Shown piece after piece: positions 26,646 to 41,495 of a stretch of DNA of 62,846 nucleotides (position 1 is the first letter of the stretch; each line of letters opens with the position of its first letter). Origin of the DNA: Nitrospirales bacterium (GTDB lineage Bacteria > Nitrospirota > Nitrospiria > Nitrospirales > UBA8639); the NCBI GenBank assembly GCA_021604005.1, contig BQIV01000029.1, forward strand, positions 1 to 62,846, in the 5' to 3' direction. Position numbers and translations under genes: made by a program. The notes beneath the pieces are model-generated. The model saw only the letters and a list, made by a program, of their open reading frames with translations, had not been told where the DNA came from and searched no databases.

Positions 26646-27542
26646 TTATCCATTTGTCTTGCCTGCCGTATATTTCGGTTCTTGTTTCTCGTCAAAATAC
26701 GAAGCGAGAATTGAAGCTCCGACTTCCGGATTTTTGAAGGTCCAGATTTGATCTTTGACCCCTTCTAGGATTAATCCGTACACCGCCAGTTCGATGGCTT
26801 CCCGTACCGCCATTTGAGGGGCTTCATTGCTGGCAATGCCGGCTTCGATTTCCAAGAGTCGTAACGGATCTACGAAGCGGAACAAGCCCCCTTCTAATTT
26901 GGCGGAAAGGATAGTTTTTCGTGTTTGCAGCGTATTGAGAATTGTGCCGCGTTTGACGGAGACCGCTCGCAAGTCCACGGTGACGGTGTCACGACGAAAT
27001 TCTGTGAACCCGCCAGCTCCGAAGTACCTGGCGCCCATCCCGCCGCTTAAGAGATTGGATTCATAGGCCACAATGCCTCCGTCAAGCAATATGGGGGCAT
27101 AGAGTAAGGGAGGAAGTGGCGGGAGCTTCTCGCCGCCATTGATATATTGTTTGCGGGTTTGGCGAATGATCTTGCGTTCATTGAGAAGATTGGACAGTCC
27201 TTCGCGTTCCAGAACCGTAAACCATTTTCCGTTACCGGTATCCATGAGTGCTTTTATTAAGAGGGAGGTTGCGCCCTGGGTGACGGCAGTGGAGTACTGC
27301 AAGACGGTATCGCTGGATTTATACTGTCCGGTATGGTCACGAAATTTATATACCACGACGACAATGGGTTCTTTCGGCGGCGGAAGGGAGACTAATTGTT
27401 GAAAAACCTGTGATTCATATCCGACCTTGGCTTTTCCGCTGGTAAGCGGTTGGACAAATGTCGAGCAGGCATTCAAGCAGAGGCTGCCGACACAGAGTAG
27501 AAGCAAGGTCCTTCCTGAAAAACGATGGCGTTTCATGAGCAC
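26646..27542 (-). CDS. csgG: Curli secretion channel lipoprotein CsgG
   Basis: Outer-membrane lipoprotein that forms the nonameric curli export channel. 298 residues. The signal peptide ends in the lipobox LNAC with Cys26. Residues of about 55-120 (IVVVVYKFRDHTGQYKSSDT, TVLEREGLSNLLNERKIIRQ) and YAPILLDGGIVAYESNLLSG are textbook CsgG. The DLRAVSVKRGTILNT strand and ELAVYGLILEGVKDQIW helix follow in order. It is the last gene of the curli operon, 15 bases after csgF. Start: GTG at 27542 or ATG two codons later, both behind GAGGAG. Assignment firm. Confidence 0.95.
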   Translation of the reverse strand: MLMKRHRFSGRTLLLLCVGSLCLNACSTFVQPLTSGKAKVGYESQVFQQLVSLPPPKEPIVVVVYKFRDHTGQYKSSDTVLQYSTAVTQGATSLLIKALMDTGNGKWFTVLEREGLSNLLNERKIIRQTRKQYINGGEKLPPLPPLLYAPILLDGGIVAYESNLLSGGMGARYFGAGGFTEFRRDTVTVDLRAVSVKRGTILNTLQTRKTILSAKLEGGLFRFVDPLRLLEIEAGIASNEAPQMAVREAIELAVYGLILEGVKDQIWTFKNPEVGASILASYFDEKQEPKYTAGKTNG

Positions 27543-27557
27543 GGTTCTCCTCTCGTA

Positions 27558-27980
27558 TTAAAAAAATGGGACTTGGATATTGGTGGTATCGCCCGTGAGC
27601 GTGTCGACGATACCAATCGCGACACCATCCACGTCTTCCGATATTTGAACGTCAAAATTTCCCGTACTAAACGATCCGGTGGATAAATCGCTGTCTTCTC
27701 CGAACACTTCTGCGACGACTTCTCGCGAAAGCCGGTTCAGGATGGCTCGGTCGAGTCTCGATTGAAAATCTTGTAGGACTGTAGTGTCATTGGTTTCTCC
27801 GCCTTCAAAGTCATTCTGCAACACCGCCGAGTTTAACAACGGTTGTGCATTAAATGGATTGCCGCCAAAATTGGGATTCACGAATTGATGACGAAGTTCA
27901 GAGGCCATGACTGGCGCACCTATCCATGTAAGGCCTGCCAGTTGAAGGGAAATAATGGTGAATATCATCGTTCGTAACAT
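27558..27980 (-). CDS. csgF: Curli assembly factor CsgF
   Basis: A 140-residue exported protein that plugs the CsgG pore and tethers the nucleator at the surface. Signal peptide 1-26 ending VMA, then the mature N-terminus ELRHQFVNPNFGGNPFNA, which is the conserved CsgG-binding segment of CsgF. The rest is acidic, with QSRLDRAILNRLSREVV and a C-terminal IGIVDTLTGDTTNIQVP strand pair. AAGGAG lies 9 bases before the ATG. It sits between csgE and csgG, the usual order E-F-G. Confidence 0.93.
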   Translation of the reverse strand: MLRTMIFTIISLQLAGLTWIGAPVMASELRHQFVNPNFGGNPFNAQPLLNSAVLQNDFEGGETNDTTVLQDFQSRLDRAILNRLSREVVAEVFGEDSDLSTGSFSTGNFDVQISEDVDGVAIGIVDTLTGDTTNIQVPFF

Positions 27981-28001
27981 GATCGCACTCTCCTTGTTCT
28001 G

Positions 28002-28460
28002 TTAGTACATATCCAGTTCTTGTTGAACGCGTTCCTGATCAGTCAGCGATTGGCGGAGGTTGTGTATCGCCATGTCCACGGCTTCTTCCAGATCTCCTAA
28101 TCGAGGTGGCAAGAGCCGTCGAAACACGATATGCTCTCCAATTTGTACGGAAATGATGCTACCGAATCGCGGGTCGGCCAATTCGCTAATGATAATATTT
28201 TGAGTGGGTGACGAAAAATTTGACCATTGTGCCGTAAAAGCCTCATAAAAATTTCGGCCGACCACGGTTCGAGTTTCATCAACAATCAATCCGGAAATAC
28301 CCAGGAACGTTTCCTCGGATTCTTCCGGCGCGGCCTGAGCAATTTCGAGATGTGTATGAGAAATCATAAGAGGTCCACCACACAGTATCAGCACGAAACT
28401 CCATGCAAGGTATTGCAGGCTTGAGGGTTGACCGTGTTTGATGATGTCCATGAGGATCAT
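28002..28460 (-). CDS. csgE: Curli assembly factor CsgE
   Basis: A 152-residue periplasmic chaperone that caps CsgG and delivers curlin subunits. After a signal peptide (residues 1 to about 43), the mature domain has ISGLIVDETRTVVGRNFYEA, then IIISELADPRFGSIISVQIG and VFRRLLPPR, the hallmarks of CsgE. The start ATG overlaps the stop of the curlin-repeat gene before it by 4 bases, indicating translational coupling. The n-region is longer than usual, so an internal start is possible. Confidence 0.92.
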   Translation of the reverse strand: MILMDIIKHGQPSSLQYLAWSFVLILCGGPLMISHTHLEIAQAAPEESEETFLGISGLIVDETRTVVGRNFYEAFTAQWSNFSSPTQNIIISELADPRFGSIISVQIGEHIVFRRLLPPRLGDLEEAVDMAIHNLRQSLTDQERVQQELDMY

Positions 28461-28843
28461 TTTCTTGGGCTTCGTTGAATAATCGTGGCCCGATTGCCGG
28501 AACCCTGTTGGCGAATACGGCTGGTATTCTTGTCGCCTCGTTGAACTGACGTGGCCGTGTTGTCTGTTCCATCCTGTTGAAGATCTGAGGCGTTTCGATC
28601 CCCGTACTGTTCTAATCTCAAATTCAGATGCGCGCCGCGCTGTCTAATGGTTTTGGCGTTGTGTGCACCGTGTTGAATGATGGTTTGACGGTTGGTGGTC
28701 ATCTTTGTGTCCTCATGTGTTGTATCCGGTGGAACATGTGTCGCTTCTGCAAGGGTGACGGACAAGCAAAGCCAGAGTCCCAAAGCGAGCGCCCACCCCA
28801 CGGGGTAGGCGCTCCATCTCCAGTTCTGCCGCGTGTTTGTCAT
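28457..28843 (-). CDS. Short basic curlin-repeat protein, CsgB-like
   Basis: A 128-residue exported curlin-repeat protein. After a long signal peptide (residues 1 to about 34) come about six repeats of the QxGxxN type at 11- to 12-residue spacing: IIQHGAHN, IRQRGAHLN, LEQYGDRN, LQQDGTDN, VQRGDKN, IRQQGSGN. The repeats are rich in Arg and Lys, opposite in charge to the long acidic subunit encoded next to it. A short, basic repeat protein coupled to csgE fits a surface nucleator like CsgB; this role is inference. Its stop overlaps csgE by 4 bases. Confidence 0.82.
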   Translation of the reverse strand: MTNTRQNWRWSAYPVGWALALGLWLCLSVTLAEATHVPPDTTHEDTKMTTNRQTIIQHGAHNAKTIRQRGAHLNLRLEQYGDRNASDLQQDGTDNTATSVQRGDKNTSRIRQQGSGNRATIIQRSPRK

Positions 28844-28869
28844 CGTCTGAAGCCTTTGGGCAGGGATGA

Positions 28870-29886
28870 TTACGGATTGTATTGCGCGACGTTTCCGTTT
28901 CCAGATTGCATCACCGATACGGCATCATATTCATGACCAACCATATTCACGAAGGCCAGGTTTCCGTCGCCGGATTGACCCACGCTGGCCACATTGTCCA
29001 TACTTTCGTTTTGAAGAATGGTTGCAGAGTTATAATCACCACTTTGATTCACCGTGGCTTCATTGTATTGCGCATAGTCATTCTGGAAAATTTCAGCTGA
29101 ATTATCGTTTCCGCTCTGGTCGACCGTCGCAACGTTGTCAGCTGAATCATAATTCTGTTCGATGGTCGCGTAGTTGTAATCTCCACTCTGGTTCACCGAG
29201 GCTTGGTTGTAGAATGAATGGTAGTATTGAGAAACCATCGCTGAGTTGCCATCACCACTTTGATCGATCGTGGCATTGTTGCTATCGGAATCTTCCAACT
29301 GGGTGACGGTGGCATAGTTGGAGTGCCCGCTTTGGTCGACATAAGCCGCATTATAGAGGCTGCCGTCCTGTGAAATGTACGCCGTGTTATCGTCTCCGCT
29401 CTGGTTCACTGTGGCGTAATTATATTCAGCCCCGTAGCTTTGAGACACGTCGGCTATGTTGCCATACCCGCTTTGATCCACCGAGGCATAATTGCCTTCA
29501 GAGTTATCGGTCTGATACACCGATGCGGTGTTATAGTCCCCGCTCTGGTCCACTGTGGCGTGATTGTATACCGACTCCCAGCTTTGAGAAATATCGGCTG
29601 AATTCCCATCGCCACTTTGATCAATTGATGCGATGTTATAGGCCGATTGCTCGCTCTGCATAATGGACGCGCTATTATAATCGCCGGCCTGATTGATAGA
29701 GGCTTCTAAGCGGATGCCATCGGGATCCGGCGCCTGGACAATCGTTGCCACATTGTCATCCCCATCTTGAATCATGTCGGCTGTGTTATTTGGCACCGAG
29801 GCCCAGGCACCCGTCGTGAGCAACGCAAAGAGTACGGCCGTTGTGATGGCGGAAAATGGTGTGTATCTGTTGAACGTGCGTGACAT
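28870..29886 (-). CDS. Long acidic curlin-repeat protein, probable major fibre subunit
   Basis: A 338-residue exported protein. The signal peptide ends near AWA (residue 29). The rest is built of about 12-13 repeats of roughly 23 residues with the core [VI][DN]QSGDxNxAxxxQ, such as DQSGDGNSADISQ and NQSGDYNSATILQ. The second half of each repeat (for example SWESVYNHAT) is more variable and ends in Asn. Gln and Asn stacks at fixed positions are what curlin amyloids use. Aspartate is very abundant. A strong AAGGAGGG site precedes the ATG. By size and repeat number it is the best candidate for the main fibre subunit (CsgA role). Confidence 0.85.
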   Translation of the reverse strand: MSRTFNRYTPFSAITTAVLFALLTTGAWASVPNNTADMIQDGDDNVATIVQAPDPDGIRLEASINQAGDYNSASIMQSEQSAYNIASIDQSGDGNSADISQSWESVYNHATVDQSGDYNTASVYQTDNSEGNYASVDQSGYGNIADVSQSYGAEYNYATVNQSGDDNTAYISQDGSLYNAAYVDQSGHSNYATVTQLEDSDSNNATIDQSGDGNSAMVSQYYHSFYNQASVNQSGDYNYATIEQNYDSADNVATVDQSGNDNSAEIFQNDYAQYNEATVNQSGDYNSATILQNESMDNVASVGQSGDGNLAFVNMVGHEYDAVSVMQSGNGNVAQYNP

Positions 29887-29986
29887 AAAACCCTCCTTGA
29901 TGAATATAGATGAATCGTTAAAGTGACATGGGAATCATTGTTCCCGCCCTGCGCGCCGGACGGGCCGCACCCGTTCCCTTGGAGTG

Positions 29987-30868
29987 CTAAGGACTGATCG
30001 CGACTGTTCCCGTCGAATCTTGTGTGACGGTAATTGCCAGCCCTTGCCCTTCTTGTATGATGGAATACGCTAACCCATCACCAATTTGCATATGAGTAAT
30101 TGAATTGTCTTGTCCGAACTGTTCGGCGTCGGCCGTATTGTTCTGTCCTACCTGTGTTTGCGATATCGTATTCCCGGATCCATGCTGCCGGGCGGACGCC
30201 TGATTTCCGGTTCCGGTTTGTTCTTGTGCAATGTAATTGTCGTCACCCAATTGAGAGGCTGCGAGCATGTTGGCGTAGCCTTCTTGATGTTGTGCGATCG
30301 TATTAAGCGAGCCGTCCTGGTAGACAGACGTCACATGAGCCGTCCCGAATTGGCCAAGCGTTGCACGACTGTCATGTGAGAATGCACCTTGTCGGACATC
30401 GGCTTGATGTGCATCGCCGCCTTGATTCACGGTGATCTGATTGGTCGTTCCCTCTTGCAAGAGCGTGGTGGCGTGCCCATCTCCAATTTGTACAATGTCG
30501 GCAATGTGATGAGCCCCATGTTGCTGAACCGTTGCCGTCTGAGCATTTCCGACTTGTTCGATTCGAGTGTCATTCGCCTGTCCGCGCTGCGAAAGTAAGG
30601 CTTGGTGTTGGTTGCCCATATGCGTGATGGTCCCTCTTTGTACGTCACCTGATTGGGTGAACAGGGCGTCGTTGGTTGCACCAAGCACGCTCGGGCAGAG
30701 ACAAAGAGAGCACAGCACACATATGAGCAATCTTGCGTTCATTGCGATGCCGTCACGAAAAAGAGAGGGGAGTCGACGCGAGCTGCCGACGGATTGATTT
30801 TCGGACTCGTGGAAAAGATGTCTGTGACATTGCTGAAGATATGTTTGAAAAAACGTATGCGTTATCAT
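29987..30868 (-). CDS. Curlin-repeat protein with dense single-strand repeats
   Basis: First gene of the curli operon, about 293 residues. The C-terminal 230 residues hold roughly 18 QxGxxN-type repeats at 11- to 12-residue spacing (QVGNAQTATVQQHGAHHIAD, then IVQIGDGHA, and so on), half the period of the acidic subunit. A good AAGGAG lies 7 bases before the ATG at 30868 and a sigma-54-type promoter lies upstream, so I take that start. It leaves 42 residues ahead of the hydrophobic MNARLLICVLCSLCLCPSVL signal segment, which is unusual; an internal ATG at 30742 would give a standard signal peptide but lacks a good binding site. It may be a minor subunit. Confidence 0.75.
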   Translation of the reverse strand: MITHTFFQTYLQQCHRHLFHESENQSVGSSRRLPSLFRDGIAMNARLLICVLCSLCLCPSVLGATNDALFTQSGDVQRGTITHMGNQHQALLSQRGQANDTRIEQVGNAQTATVQQHGAHHIADIVQIGDGHATTLLQEGTTNQITVNQGGDAHQADVRQGAFSHDSRATLGQFGTAHVTSVYQDGSLNTIAQHQEGYANMLAASQLGDDNYIAQEQTGTGNQASARQHGSGNTISQTQVGQNNTADAEQFGQDNSITHMQIGDGLAYSIIQEGQGLAITVTQDSTGTVAISP

Positions 30869-30915
30869 GCCTGGACTCCTTGAATGAATGAAGACTGTCA
30901 CTGAAATAGTGATGA

Positions 30916-31140: not shown

Positions 31141-33000
31141 TTATTGAGCCAGCGGAATGTTGAGGTGAGATGTTGTTTGTGCGTCGGGGGCCACAATATC
31201 AGCTGTGCCTTCCAGGCTTTTAAGGAATTCTCCAAGCGTGACGGTTCCATCTCGATTCCGGTCCGCGTTACCTTGTAAACCGGATAAGAATTGCACGGGT
31301 TCCTGCTTGGCATTCTTTTCTTGAAGGCGGCGAATTTGAATAAGGTGGGAACGGGTGTTCTTCATCGATGGGATTGCTGCACGCCAATTGGCTGGAGCCG
31401 ATCCGTTGAGTCCTACCGTGCTTCCCGTGTCATCCAAATATTGCGCGACGGGCGTATCGAGGAATAAGAGCGAAAGTTTCACCTTGAGCTTGCCTAGCAC
31501 CCGTTGAAGGCTTCGGAGCGATATGAGTTGTTTTTTGGAGGTGGTGAGCGATCCCTCGTATGGAACCAGGTAGACTTCTCCTTTTACCGGATCAACGAGA
31601 GTATGCCCTGCAAAATACAACAAGAAGATAGTATCGGAGGTCAATTGCTTTTTGGCCCATGAGAACAAGGTTCTTTCAATGTCGGTGCGGGTGGCAAGGC
31701 TGCCATTCAGAATTTTGATACGGTCTTGAGAAAAGGATTGTGTTGATCCAAGTGTACTGGCTACCCGTTGTATCTGTTGCGTGGGTACCTGGTGAGCTTG
31801 GGGCCATGGATCTTGGTACTCATTGAGTCCAATCACGAGGGCGTAATTGGGGGGCTCTGTTTGTGGTGAGGTCTTGTCCAAAGTGTCCCCGTTCCTGTCG
31901 CTGGGAAGTGTATTCATCTTTTTGTGTAATACCGGCTTGGAGGAGGAAGGGCCAGGTTGAATAGCCGCAAGAATCGTATGCGCACCGGGCGGAATGCCCT
32001 GGGAGAGTGAAATGGATACGACTAATTCCCCCTTTTCGTGTTCCACGGTGGCTGGCATGCGGCCGCGTACTTCTGTGGTTTTACTTTCTCCAGGCTGTAG
32101 TGCTCCAATTGGAATTGGTAATGTTGTGACTGCGGCAAACGCATCAACGATGGCTTGGCTGCCACGTAATTCAATATAGGCCGAGGGTAGTGAGGTTGAA
32201 CTGGAATTTGTTGTTTCAATTTGGAGAATGACATTCTCCCCTCCCTCTAGCACCAGGTTGTCATTGGCGTCCTGGAGCTTCGTTCTGAAGGAAAGTGAGG
32301 CTTGTGGTGCGGTTGTGCCTGGGGAAGGCTGTGGTGCGACATGATTCGTTCCGCTCACTCCAGGTTGAGGCTGCCTTGAGAGTCCATAGAGACGCGGGAG
32401 CGCATTGGCCATGTCATTCGCTAATGTTTCGGCGGCTTTTTCGACCACGGCGTCAAACTGTCCGGTTGCACACGACTGTGATTGAGCCGTAAGCGCAGGA
32501 GTCCACATGTTGACCTTGTCTGCATAGGAAAGCGGGGTCTGAGCCAACGCCTTGCCCTGTGAGTCGTGATACACCGCTTGGAGTTGGAGCTCCACATTCG
32601 CATGATATCGATCTTCTTCGCCCGACCGGCCGATTGGCTCGAAATTCATCTGAACGAACGTTAAGTCAACGGTGACTTCGTTTGAGGCGCCGGGAGTTGC
32701 GTCAGCTGTAGGGGTGGGTTGGGTGCTGACCGAGGCAAAATGGTCTTGCCCCACATGAAGAAATGTCTCGGTAATGATTTCCCCAGAATTGACCGTATAG
32801 GGCAGGCCGCAGGCATCCACGACTTGTGTATGTTGAACAAGTGTTGGGTCAAATCGGTAGACGACGGAGATGGGGAGCTTGGCTTTGGGTTTTTCATCAA
32901 ACGAAAGACGGGGAATGGAGATCTTCTCGCATGCGGCAAGAGAACTCACGAAACAGACCCCCACAAATAGATGCAACCATTTCGCTGTTAGCTTCGACAT
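31141..33000 (-). CDS. Lipoprotein with inactive caspase-like domain and EF-hand
   Basis: A 619-residue lipoprotein (lipobox LAAC, Cys24). Residues 40 to about 200 form an unknown lipoprotein domain. Residues 235-350 look like an immunoglobulin-type beta domain. Residues 385-560 match the peptidase C14 caspase fold: YALVIGLNEY, then DTIFLLYFAGHT with the catalytic His at 466. Where the catalytic Cys should be (family LDxC), the protein has FLDTPV, with Pro517, so it cannot cleave. Residues 580-591 are a canonical Ca2+-binding loop, DRNRDGTVTLGE. It likely acts as a binding or scaffold protein at the envelope. It lies upstream of the curli operon in the same direction and divergent from two lipoprotein genes. 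Confidence 0.75.
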   Translation of the reverse strand: MSKLTAKWLHLFVGVCFVSSLAACEKISIPRLSFDEKPKAKLPISVVYRFDPTLVQHTQVVDACGLPYTVNSGEIITETFLHVGQDHFASVSTQPTPTADATPGASNEVTVDLTFVQMNFEPIGRSGEEDRYHANVELQLQAVYHDSQGKALAQTPLSYADKVNMWTPALTAQSQSCATGQFDAVVEKAAETLANDMANALPRLYGLSRQPQPGVSGTNHVAPQPSPGTTAPQASLSFRTKLQDANDNLVLEGGENVILQIETTNSSSTSLPSAYIELRGSQAIVDAFAAVTTLPIPIGALQPGESKTTEVRGRMPATVEHEKGELVVSISLSQGIPPGAHTILAAIQPGPSSSKPVLHKKMNTLPSDRNGDTLDKTSPQTEPPNYALVIGLNEYQDPWPQAHQVPTQQIQRVASTLGSTQSFSQDRIKILNGSLATRTDIERTLFSWAKKQLTSDTIFLLYFAGHTLVDPVKGEVYLVPYEGSLTTSKKQLISLRSLQRVLGKLKVKLSLLFLDTPVAQYLDDTGSTVGLNGSAPANWRAAIPSMKNTRSHLIQIRRLQEKNAKQEPVQFLSGLQGNADRNRDGTVTLGEFLKSLEGTADIVAPDAQTTSHLNIPLAQ

Positions 33001-33150: not shown

Positions 33151-33912
33151 ATGAAATCTCTATCAATCGCCAGTGTGGCTGTGAGTGTTTTGATCGTCAG
33201 TAGTTGTGCGACTCAATCGTTACCGGAACGACTACCGGTGTATTGGGGGATGAGTAGTGAAAGGTGGGCGCAGGCTCCATCGAATGTGATTCCCCAAGCA
33301 GAGGGACAAGCAGGGCTGTTAGTCATCAATGATACGACGGCTTCTCAATCGGCTCCCGCACTTTCCGAGAAGGCCTTCAAAGGGTTTGCCCACCGTTTGC
33401 AAGTGGCTCTTGGTGAGCAATTCCCGTTGCTCGTTGTGAAGGTGCTTGACAGCAATTCCGTGTCGCATGAACGGGGTGGCGAGCAATTTGTTCATGTTGC
33501 CCAGCAGGAAGGCCTGGATTATTTGCTGTTTGCTGTTCTCTCAAGCACTGAAAGAGAAGTTTCTGATCGTTTCCCGTTACAGGGTACGCAGCAGGGTGTA
33601 GGGGCTCGGGGAGGGCTACTTGTTGGTGTTCGTGCTGAAAACTATGCGCTGGTAGAGTTAGCCTTCGTCGATGGGAAGACCGGTCTTCCTGTCGTTCATG
33701 CGAATGGGTCGGCTTGGTCTGTGCTGGAACGCCTCAACGTACCGCTAGCGTCCAATGTCTATCCCGTTGTTCGACGTGATCTCACACAGCCGCCTATCTA
33801 TCCGACAGAGGAAACCGCCTATGACACGCTTCGTGTTGTGTCCGCGAATGATGCCATGAAGCAAGCCCTTATGCATTTTCAGACCGAATGGGGAAAGGAC
33901 TCATCTCCATGA
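33151..33912 (+). CDS. Hypothetical lipoprotein, paralogue of the next gene
   Basis: A 253-residue exported lipoprotein with signal peptide MKSLSIASVAVSVLIVSSC (lipobox VSSC). The body has an alpha/beta pattern: GLLVINDTTASQSAPALSEK, then a helix with AHRLQVALGEQFPLLVV, then LDYLLFAVLSSTEREVS and NYALVELAFVDGKTGLPV. This resembles the CsgG/LpoB/TolB-N-like fold in outline, but no family is certain. AAAGGAG lies before the ATG. Its stop overlaps the start of the next lipoprotein gene by 4 bases, and the two share LNVP and ALVELA motifs near their ends, so they are paralogues and probably act together. Confidence 0.68.
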   Translation: MKSLSIASVAVSVLIVSSCATQSLPERLPVYWGMSSERWAQAPSNVIPQAEGQAGLLVINDTTASQSAPALSEKAFKGFAHRLQVALGEQFPLLVVKVLDSNSVSHERGGEQFVHVAQQEGLDYLLFAVLSSTEREVSDRFPLQGTQQGVGARGGLLVGVRAENYALVELAFVDGKTGLPVVHANGSAWSVLERLNVPLASNVYPVVRRDLTQPPIYPTEETAYDTLRVVSANDAMKQALMHFQTEWGKDSSP

Positions 33913-34613
33913 ACATGTTACTGCGACAGCTGGGAGTTGGATGCCTCACCGGTTTTCTGATGCTGAGCGTGAGCGGGTGTGTCTCGCCTGTCAGTCCGAG
34001 AATGCCGGCGGTTCTCGGCCTTTCGGAAGAGCTCATGGATGTGACTTCGAATCCCTCGGATCACTGGGCCAAGTATCGGACGTTTGGTTTGGTGACTGTG
34101 TCTGATGCCACGGGCCCGGAAGCCGCCCCAGCCGTTTCATCGACTCTGCTATTAACGTTGACGCGGAGAGTAGAGGCCTATTTCGAACACCAATGTGGGG
34201 GCATTGCATTGAAACGCTTTCCCATGCCGGATTTTCATGCAGGGAAAGGGCTGATTTCCCTACGTCATGTTGCTCGTCAGCATGATGTTGAAGCGGTCAT
34301 TATTGTGATATTTTCCAGTACGGAATCGATGGAAGCGGCCACGTTTGGTGAAGCACGGATGATGACGCAGATGCCGGGAACGACGACATACAATACGGCA
34401 TTGGTCGAGCTTGCGTTGCTTGATGTCGCGGAGGGGCGTCTTGCGCTTCGCATCGTACAGACCGCAGTCGAACGGTTGGACCGACTGAATGTTCCCATAG
34501 GCTCTGATCAAGGCACGCGAGAGGAGGCGTTGGATATACTTCGCGCTCAGGCAGGACAACAAGCGTTAGATCGAGGTCTTGAAGGCTTGACCCATGGCTG
34601 TCCCTCGGCCTGA
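33909..34613 (+). CDS. Hypothetical lipoprotein, paralogue of the previous gene
   Basis: About 234 residues from the ATG at 33909, which overlaps the previous stop (ATGA). The signal peptide has lipobox VSGC. The body parallels the preceding protein: GLVTVSDATGPEAAPAVSST, RRVEAYFEHQCGG, DVEAVIIVIFSSTESME, YNTALVELALLDVAEGRLAL, and LDRLNVPIGSDQG. The upstream in-frame start at 33888 would bury the signal peptide. Tight coupling suggests a two-subunit lipoprotein complex at the envelope. No catalytic residues are apparent and I can name no function. Confidence 0.68.
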   Translation: MNMLLRQLGVGCLTGFLMLSVSGCVSPVSPRMPAVLGLSEELMDVTSNPSDHWAKYRTFGLVTVSDATGPEAAPAVSSTLLLTLTRRVEAYFEHQCGGIALKRFPMPDFHAGKGLISLRHVARQHDVEAVIIVIFSSTESMEAATFGEARMMTQMPGTTTYNTALVELALLDVAEGRLALRIVQTAVERLDRLNVPIGSDQGTREEALDILRAQAGQQALDRGLEGLTHGCPSA

Positions 34614-39871: not shown

Positions 39872-41122
39872 ATGCACTTGGCTGAACTGAAGCAAAAATC
39901 GATTGGTGAACTCAATGATCTTGCTCGCGAACTGAAAATTGATGGGGCGCCGAATCTTCGAAAGCAAGAGCTCATCTTCTCCATCCTTCAAGGACAAACT
40001 GAAAAGAATGGGGTCATTTTCGGAGAGGGTGTGCTTGAAACGCTGTCTGATGGGTTTGGATTTCTTCGCGCACCGGACTCGAACTACTTGCCGGGTCCCG
40101 ATGATATCTATATCTCGCCATCTCAAATCCGCCGATTTAATTTACGCACCGGCGATATAGTTTCAGGCCAGATCCGGCCGCCGAAGGAAGGCGAGCGCTA
40201 CTTTGCCCTGCTGAAGGTCGAGAAGATTAATTATGACGATCCTGAGGTTCAACGGGATAAGATTCTCTTTGATAACTTAACGCCCCTCTATCCGGAAGAA
40301 CGCATTAATCTTGAGTTTGATCAAGAAGAATATTGCACGCGAGTCTTAGAGTTGACGACGCCTATTGGAAAAGGGCAACGCGGGTTGATTGTCGCCGCTC
40401 CCAGAACCGGAAAAACCATGTTGCTACAAGCCATGGCCCGGGCAATCTTGAGCAATCACTCCGAAATTACGCTCATTGTGTTGCTGATAGATGAGCGTCC
40501 GGAGGAAGTCACGGATTGGCAACGGCAAGTGAAGTCTGCCGAAGTGATCAGCTCTACCTTTGATGAGCCGGCTCAACGTCATGCGCAGGTTGCAGAAATT
40601 GTAATGGAAAAGGCGAAGCGACTGGTTGAACATAAACGCGATGTGGTGATTCTTCTTGATAGCATCACGCGGCTGGCGCGGGCCTACAATACGATTGCGC
40701 CTCCCAGTGGGAAGGTCTTGTCCGGGGGCTTAGATTCCAATGCGCTTCAACGTCCGAAGCGATTTTTCGGTGCCGCGCGGAATATTGAACATGGTGGAAG
40801 TCTGACGATTTTGGCCACGTCGCTGGTGGATACGGGCAGTCGTATGGACGATGTAATTTTCGAGGAGTTCAAAGGAACTGGAAATATGGAGGTCCATCTT
40901 GATCGCCGGCTTGCCGATAAACGTCTATTTCCGGCTATTGATATTAATCAATCTGGTACGCGGAAAGAGGAATTGTTGGTGGATCGGGATCGTCTCAATA
41001 AGATGTGGATTCTTCGAAAGGTGCTGAGTCCGCTGGGGACGATGGAAGCCATGGAATTCTTAATGGATAAAATCGGAGGTACCAAAAATAATCAAGAGTT
41101 TTTGCAGTCGATGAACCGGTAA
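39872..41122 (+). CDS. rho: Transcription termination factor Rho
   Basis: Hexameric RNA helicase that terminates transcription. About 416 residues. The N-terminal Rho domain ([20 protein letters not shown]) and the cold-shock-like RNA-binding domain ([20 protein letters not shown]) precede the ATPase core. The Walker A is AAPRTGKT (about residues 175-182; more often APPKAGKT). [21 protein letters not shown] and the C-terminal [13 protein letters not shown] are all conserved. I take the ATG at 39872 because GGAG lies 6 bases before it; the ATG at 39860 is an alternative. It leads a run with rpmE and prfA but is separated from rpmE by duplicated repeats. Confidence 0.97.
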
Positions 41123-41180
41123 GATGTTCAAACACGCCATTGTCAGGTATTGAATCCAAGCCTTCAACTCTTGCATACTA

Positions 41181-41495
41181 GTACACCTGTAATGGCAACA
41201 TAGTATGCTAGAGCCCTTATCCAAAAAATGAGCCATAATCAAAGGGTAATTGAACCTGGAATTATCGTGTACTAGAGCAATTCTACATACGTGCCAAACG
41301 GGAACACATAACTGACTTAGCGCGGTAGCATGTTTGAAACAGCGGAAGTTCTGTGGAATGGATGTACACCTGTAATGGCAACGTAGTATGCTAGAGCCCT
41401 TATCCAAAAAATGAGCCATAATCAAAGGCAAATGAAACTAGAATGACCGTATACTAGAGCGAATCCACATATCGTTCCAAACGGGAAAACACAAC
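41181..41495 (+). repeat. Direct duplication of about 130 bp between rho and rpmE
   Basis: Unit 1 (41181-41313) and unit 2 (41364-41495) both start GTACACCTGTAATGGCAAC, contain the block AGAGCCCTTATCCAAAAAAT plus GAGCCATAATCAAAGG, and end with a MITE-like end (for example GCGAATCCACATATCG and CCAAACGGGAA). Divergence is higher in the middle. A 17-base relative of the unit start (GTACACCTGCTATGGCA) sits at the prfA start codon. Confidence 0.8.

Follow-up and report, generated by a model that had tools for sequence, protein, structure and literature searches.

The window analysed here—62,846 nucleotides of contig BQIV01000029.1 (assembly GCA_021604005.1) from a Nitrospirales bacterium—encodes an envelope-lipoprotein version of the otherwise known pseudo-orthocaspases, and it is this version that is new. 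Pseudo-orthocaspases have so far been discussed mostly in cyanobacteria. In the protein described here, which belongs to Nitrospira-type, nitrite-oxidizing bacteria, a caspase fold without its catalytic dyad is joined to a putative lipid anchor, an N-terminal domain and an Ig-like domain, and it carries an EF-hand-type Ca2+ loop. A caspase that is dead across a whole order and sits on an envelope lipoprotein offers a clean case of what the caspase fold does other than cutting; its Ca2+-loop ligands stay invariant while both catalytic residues drift. The features of the gene and its surroundings are as follows.

31141..33000 (stop codon included), minus strand: whole gene, 619-aa lipoprotein pseudo-caspase (ORF, PF00656, relatives)
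32929..33000, minus strand: signal peptide and lipobox, residues 1-24 (SSLAAC sequence, Cys24, model helix 3-24)
32383..32928, minus strand: N-terminal alpha/beta domain, residues 25-206 (alignments, model)
31951..32304, minus strand: Ig-like (CARDB-type) beta domain, residues 233-350 (weak CARDB/NEW3 matches, model, dN/dS)
31144..31851, minus strand: pseudo-caspase domain, residues 384-619 (PF00656, pLDDT mostly >90, MALT1 match)
31603..31605, minus strand: His466 (YFAGH), catalytic His column (alignment; Gln in most orthologues)
31450..31452, minus strand: Pro517 (LDTPV), catalytic Cys column (alignment; never Cys in orthologues)
31228..31263, minus strand: EF-hand-type Ca2+ loop DRNRDGTVTLGE, residues 580-591, p10-like half (alignment, model)
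33151..33912, plus strand: lipA, divergent putative lipoprotein and conserved neighbour (ORF, locus comparison)
33888..34613, plus strand: lipB, second lipoprotein, distant relative of lipA at 29% identity (locus comparison)
26646..30901, minus strand: curli cluster of csgG, csgF, csgE and three curlin-repeat proteins (profiles; judged outside the module)

Protein layout and caspase fold

The open reading frame begins with ATG, and its product reads, from the N-terminus, signal peptide and lipobox, N-domain, CARDB-like Ig domain and caspase fold. As in bacterial lipoproteins, the signal peptide runs into a lipobox with a terminal cysteine (SLAAC, residues 20-24); the Cys24 column is almost invariant in the alignment of relatives, and this residue is the predicted site of lipidation. 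The N-domain is without a Pfam match. Two of its cysteines, the invariant Cys177 and the near-invariant Cys64, probably form a disulfide. For the Ig-like region, profile searches with relatives returned weak CARDB and NEW3 matches. FlgT and Campylobacter Cj1090c are among the Foldseek matches of the whole model; either the N-domain or the Ig domain may be the source of these two matches.

The caspase part is recognised by profile and by structure. PF00656 (caspase) covers residues 386-516 with an E value of 2.8e-5 and 24.4 bits against a cut-off of 21.4, and NCBIfam NF047832 reaches 1.6e-7 yet stays under its own cut-off. Among 39 family members, 20 are matched by PF00656 at E values up to 0.1. 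A PF00656 scan of the window's own genome misses the gene, which a query with the protein recovers; the sensitivity of that family scan for this gene is therefore limited. The structure is an alignment-based model built from 39 sequences, replacing a single-sequence prediction that reached only pLDDT 37.7. Its mean pLDDT is 81.7, with most of the caspase part above 90, while a pTM of 0.46 leaves the relative placement of the domains uncertain. Among PDB structures, MALT1 fits the caspase part best (Z 18.1, rmsd 2.5, 187 residues), and the bacterial GSU0716 also matches (Z 16.4); with the PF00656 score above gathering, these matches identify the p20-type alpha/beta fold of Peptidase_C14. Although the Pfam match extends only to profile position 126 of 233, just short of the catalytic Cys position, the p10-like elements alpha4, alpha5 and beta6 are present in the model. 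The sequence-only reading had described the gene as a lipoprotein pseudo-caspase, and the open frame, the lipobox Cys24, the PF00656 match and the lost dyad bear this out.

Lost catalysis and a retained loop

The residue at the catalytic Cys position is indeed Pro517, and none of 58 aligned full-length orthologous rows has a cysteine in that column (Pro 25, Met 11, Thr 7, Ser 5, Ala 5, others)—a search for orthologues with an intact Cys, which could have overturned the initial description, came back empty. The only cysteines of the window protein are residues 16, 24, 64 and 177, none of them in the caspase domain; with no Cys after residue 177, the caspase part is excluded as a cysteine protease. 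Nor is the partner column conserved: it holds Gln in 41 of the 58 rows and His in 12, which makes His466 the state of one lineage rather than a conserved feature. The catalytic His that had been reported as kept is thus present in the window, but it has little meaning for the family. Among 221 columns, ranked for conservation after removal of one badly aligned row, the His column stands 70th and the Cys column 145th. The His-Cys dyad of active orthocaspases and metacaspases is absent, and on the sequence alone we regard it as close to certain that cysteine-protease catalysis is absent too; the idea of a non-cleaving, membrane-anchored caspase-like protein gains support from both the Cys column and the cysteine-free domain.

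The loop DRNRDGTVTLGE has the residues of an EF-hand loop (D1, N/D3, D/N5, G6, a hydrophobic residue at 8, and E12) and the two helices, and the earlier description of a perfect loop holds. The 12-residue pattern is present in 54 of the 58 orthologous rows, and D580 (position 1) and E591 (position 12) are invariant in 57 rows, one badly aligned row having been removed; a chance origin is excluded by these counts. In the model the loop is flanked by helices 568-576 and 589-595 (alpha4-alpha5) and lies ahead of the last strand, 616-618 (beta6), and hence is part of the p10-like half of the fold; it does not follow the fold, as had been supposed. The protein has one loop only, without the pairing of EF-hands, and the EF-hand_1 profile scores 11.9 bits, below its cut-off of 25.4. 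The loop D580-E591 likely binds Ca2+; as a lone EF-type loop without a paired partner, it may do so weakly.

Caspases with an intact dyad share this loop. Among sampled caspases of the phylum, motif patterns gave approximate counts of ~15 with the loop in ~44 with GHG and D-x-C; the loop lies at +118 to +127 from the His motif in these proteins and at +115 in the window protein. Such a shared position marks the loop as an older, optional bacterial caspase element that the dead family has retained. Being part of the fold and common to intact-dyad caspases, it is not to be read as an acquired sensor, and a joint origin of EF-hand and Cys loss—the co-occurrence that the sequence-only reading had put forward for checking—was rejected. 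A bound ion is more likely to be structural than a signal; Ca2+ sensing is possible but not favoured; structural binding would fit the same data. Sequence queries of the PDB did not identify a solved structure with the loop: one intact-dyad Nitrospirota caspase (L177) returned ankyrin repeats and another (L090) only yeast metacaspase.

Distribution, neighbourhood and proposed role

A match to the gene was found in 55 of the 59 Nitrospirales relatives searched, some of the weaker matches being other caspase-type proteins and not orthologues. Identity is ~74% in Nitrospirales bacterium NPIRA01 and NPIRA04 and ~27% in the Nitrospira moscoviensis match. Against three congeners the caspase domain has a dN/dS of 0.10-0.18 (saturated for the fourth), the N-domain 0.11-0.13 and the linkers 0.25-0.47 where computable; the Ig-like domain, at 0.05-0.10, is under the strongest constraint in the protein. 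The caspase domain is maintained under purifying selection. It has also disappeared on at least two occasions from proteins that kept the N and Ig domains: the gene stops behind the Ig-like domain in a 12-row clade, sister to the window's genus, and likewise in a pair of Nitrospira rows, with no caspase piece found near the domain-less genes in either group. Repeated loss of this domain alone implies that it is optional, attached to a lipoprotein that is itself more conserved, and not essential to the core function of that protein.

The gene's conserved neighbour is lipA. It lies divergent and upstream in all 20 loci of the window's family and in 13 of 26 other Nitrospirales loci; six genomes of another family each have one copy of lipA, 0.2-6.2 kb away from the gene in every case, and around the gene in many other Nitrospirales that do not belong to the window's family no homologue of lipA was detected. 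The divergent lipoprotein pair that had been remarked on in the window is real, and its lipA neighbourhood is conserved. Within the window's family the genes stand in a conserved order: pseudo-caspase, lipA (lipB), yajQ and cstA, with rho and prfA further along; outside the family yajQ is absent from the neighbourhood. Chance is a poor explanation for such a linkage to lipA, and LipA is accordingly the strongest candidate for a partner. Profile comparisons of LipA or the N-domain with CsgG (five sequences on the CsgG side), and of LipA with the N-domain, gave no support for a relationship, and promoter and terminator scans did no better than shuffles. A plasmid search gave no match, and a mobile plasmid origin was rejected. 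One locus from a genome of another family (L040, G037) takes a tree position with the window's family and has lipA ~220 bp away and an alginate-export-type gene nearby; its arrangement suggests horizontal transfer or a retained ancestral order. Between rho and prfA, a short ORF (41060-41431, minus strand) encodes the peptide PLIMAHFLDKGSSIL twice, which points to a direct repeat in the DNA on the downstream side of rho.

We consider it probable that the protein is a lipid-anchored envelope lipoprotein whose Ca2+-stiffened pseudo-caspase serves as a non-catalytic binding module, probably for LipA-type partners, with curli an incidental neighbour. The anchored protein would face the periplasm or the outer surface, and the N-terminal and Ig-like domains would form its core. 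One Ca2+ ion in the alpha4-alpha5 loop would stiffen the caspase fold, which in turn may act as a protein-binding module; from the gene linkage, its partners would most likely be envelope proteins such as LipA. A variant in which the domain is an optional adaptor, Ca2+ in the alpha4-alpha5 loop switching LipA binding and so regulating the conserved lipoprotein core, strikes us as possible but unlikely. Slightly more doubtful is a true Ca2+ sensor, whose fold would change shape on Ca2+ and signal to LipA/LipB, either within the envelope or across it: the chelating residues are invariant and the partner gene is conserved, but no signalling gene is linked to the locus, a single loop within a folded domain speaks for structural binding, and the intact-dyad caspases that share the loop need not signal there. 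Some proteolysis might survive with another nucleophile, or the old active-site groove might capture substrates, and both the fold and the segment from the His to the Cys column (GEVYLVPYEGS...ISLRTLQRVL) are conserved; however, with Pro, Met, Thr, Ser, Ala and others in the Cys column, mostly Gln in the His column and no other conserved nucleophile seen, we find this improbable.

The remaining two explanations turn on distribution and selection. That the caspase domain is a functionless remnant on its way out would agree with its repeated loss and with its faster evolution relative to the Ig domain, but its dN/dS where computable, the invariant positions (loop ligands included) and frames that are open across the entire order make this very improbable; a pseudogene was rejected on dN/dS and the conserved open frames. 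Least credible of all is a curli accessory factor that would act, together with the adjacent csg genes, as a scaffold for curli secretion or assembly. The csg genes are found downstream in the same orientation and adjoin the gene in four of the five genomes of the window's genus, but nowhere else among the 59 genomes, and the fifth congener has the gene and its remaining neighbours but no curli. Strong CsgG matches (E <1e-40) occur in only four of the relatives searched, all from the window's genus, so that the gene, with its 55 of 59, does not co-occur with csg as a curli component should; at least ~240 bp also separate it from the first curlin gene (the curlin-repeat proteins have 128, 338 and 304 aa). 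A curli role was rejected on this distribution. Of the suggested link to curli, the adjacency in the window stands and the functional connection does not—the csg genes are a lineage-specific, incidental neighbour.

Relation to known caspases

The class of pseudo-orthocaspases is already established: dyad substitutions are found in 858 of 9,994 bacterial orthocaspases, and EF-hand motifs occur in seven archaeal orthocaspases (PMC6426788). The family described here fits the definition of this class (PMC6426788), a caspase p20 fold that lacks the His-Cys dyad, and it shares with its members, including Synechocystis SyOC (PMC7889975), a bacterial origin, the loss of the dyad and a presumed lack of proteolysis. 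It differs in the residues that replace the dyad—Pro, Met, Thr, Ser or Ala in the Cys column and Gln or His in the His column, where Tyr-Ser is common but not obligatory in the known class—and in being a lipoprotein of the non-photosynthetic Nitrospirales that combines an Ig-like domain with a Ca2+-type loop.

The same kind of catalytic loss is on record for the phylum, where only 57% of Nitrospirae metacaspases were reported to have an intact dyad (PMC3501461); the relevant passages of that survey name no lipoprotein family, and an EF-hand is absent from its text, whereas here one orthologous family is uniformly inactive. The intact Nitrospirota caspases with a DxNxDGxIxxxE loop (for example L177, L090 and L188) place it at a similar distance after the His motif, but they retain both GHG and D-x-C, and their N-terminal parts are different. 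MALT1, a paracaspase, is the closest solved fold of the caspase part and also has Ig-like domains in the same protein; unlike the window protein it is an active Cys protease, its Ig domains are canonical and it has a death domain part as well, and sequence identity is ~14%. With weak CARDB/NEW3 matches in place of a PF00047-type Ig domain, and without a dyad, the window protein is not a paracaspase. Our search of the open-access literature found no description of a lipoprotein family with an Ig-like domain, uniform dyad loss and order-wide invariant Ca2+ ligands.

Other caspase-type genes came to light in the relatives. A second apparently inactive family in Nitrospira (L037, L099, L102, L104 and L179) consists of a secreted protein that keeps GHAG, has the Cys column replaced in LDAPV, IDAGV or LDSAV, carries the Ca2+-type loop DLDGNGWLMASE and has a C-terminal part resembling TPR repeats; at L037 its gene lies convergent, on the minus strand, directly downstream of the orthologue of the window gene. 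One genome (G055, loci L170-L181) holds an unusual expansion of ~15 caspase-domain genes; most of them have an intact dyad, and ankyrin repeats occur in at least one.
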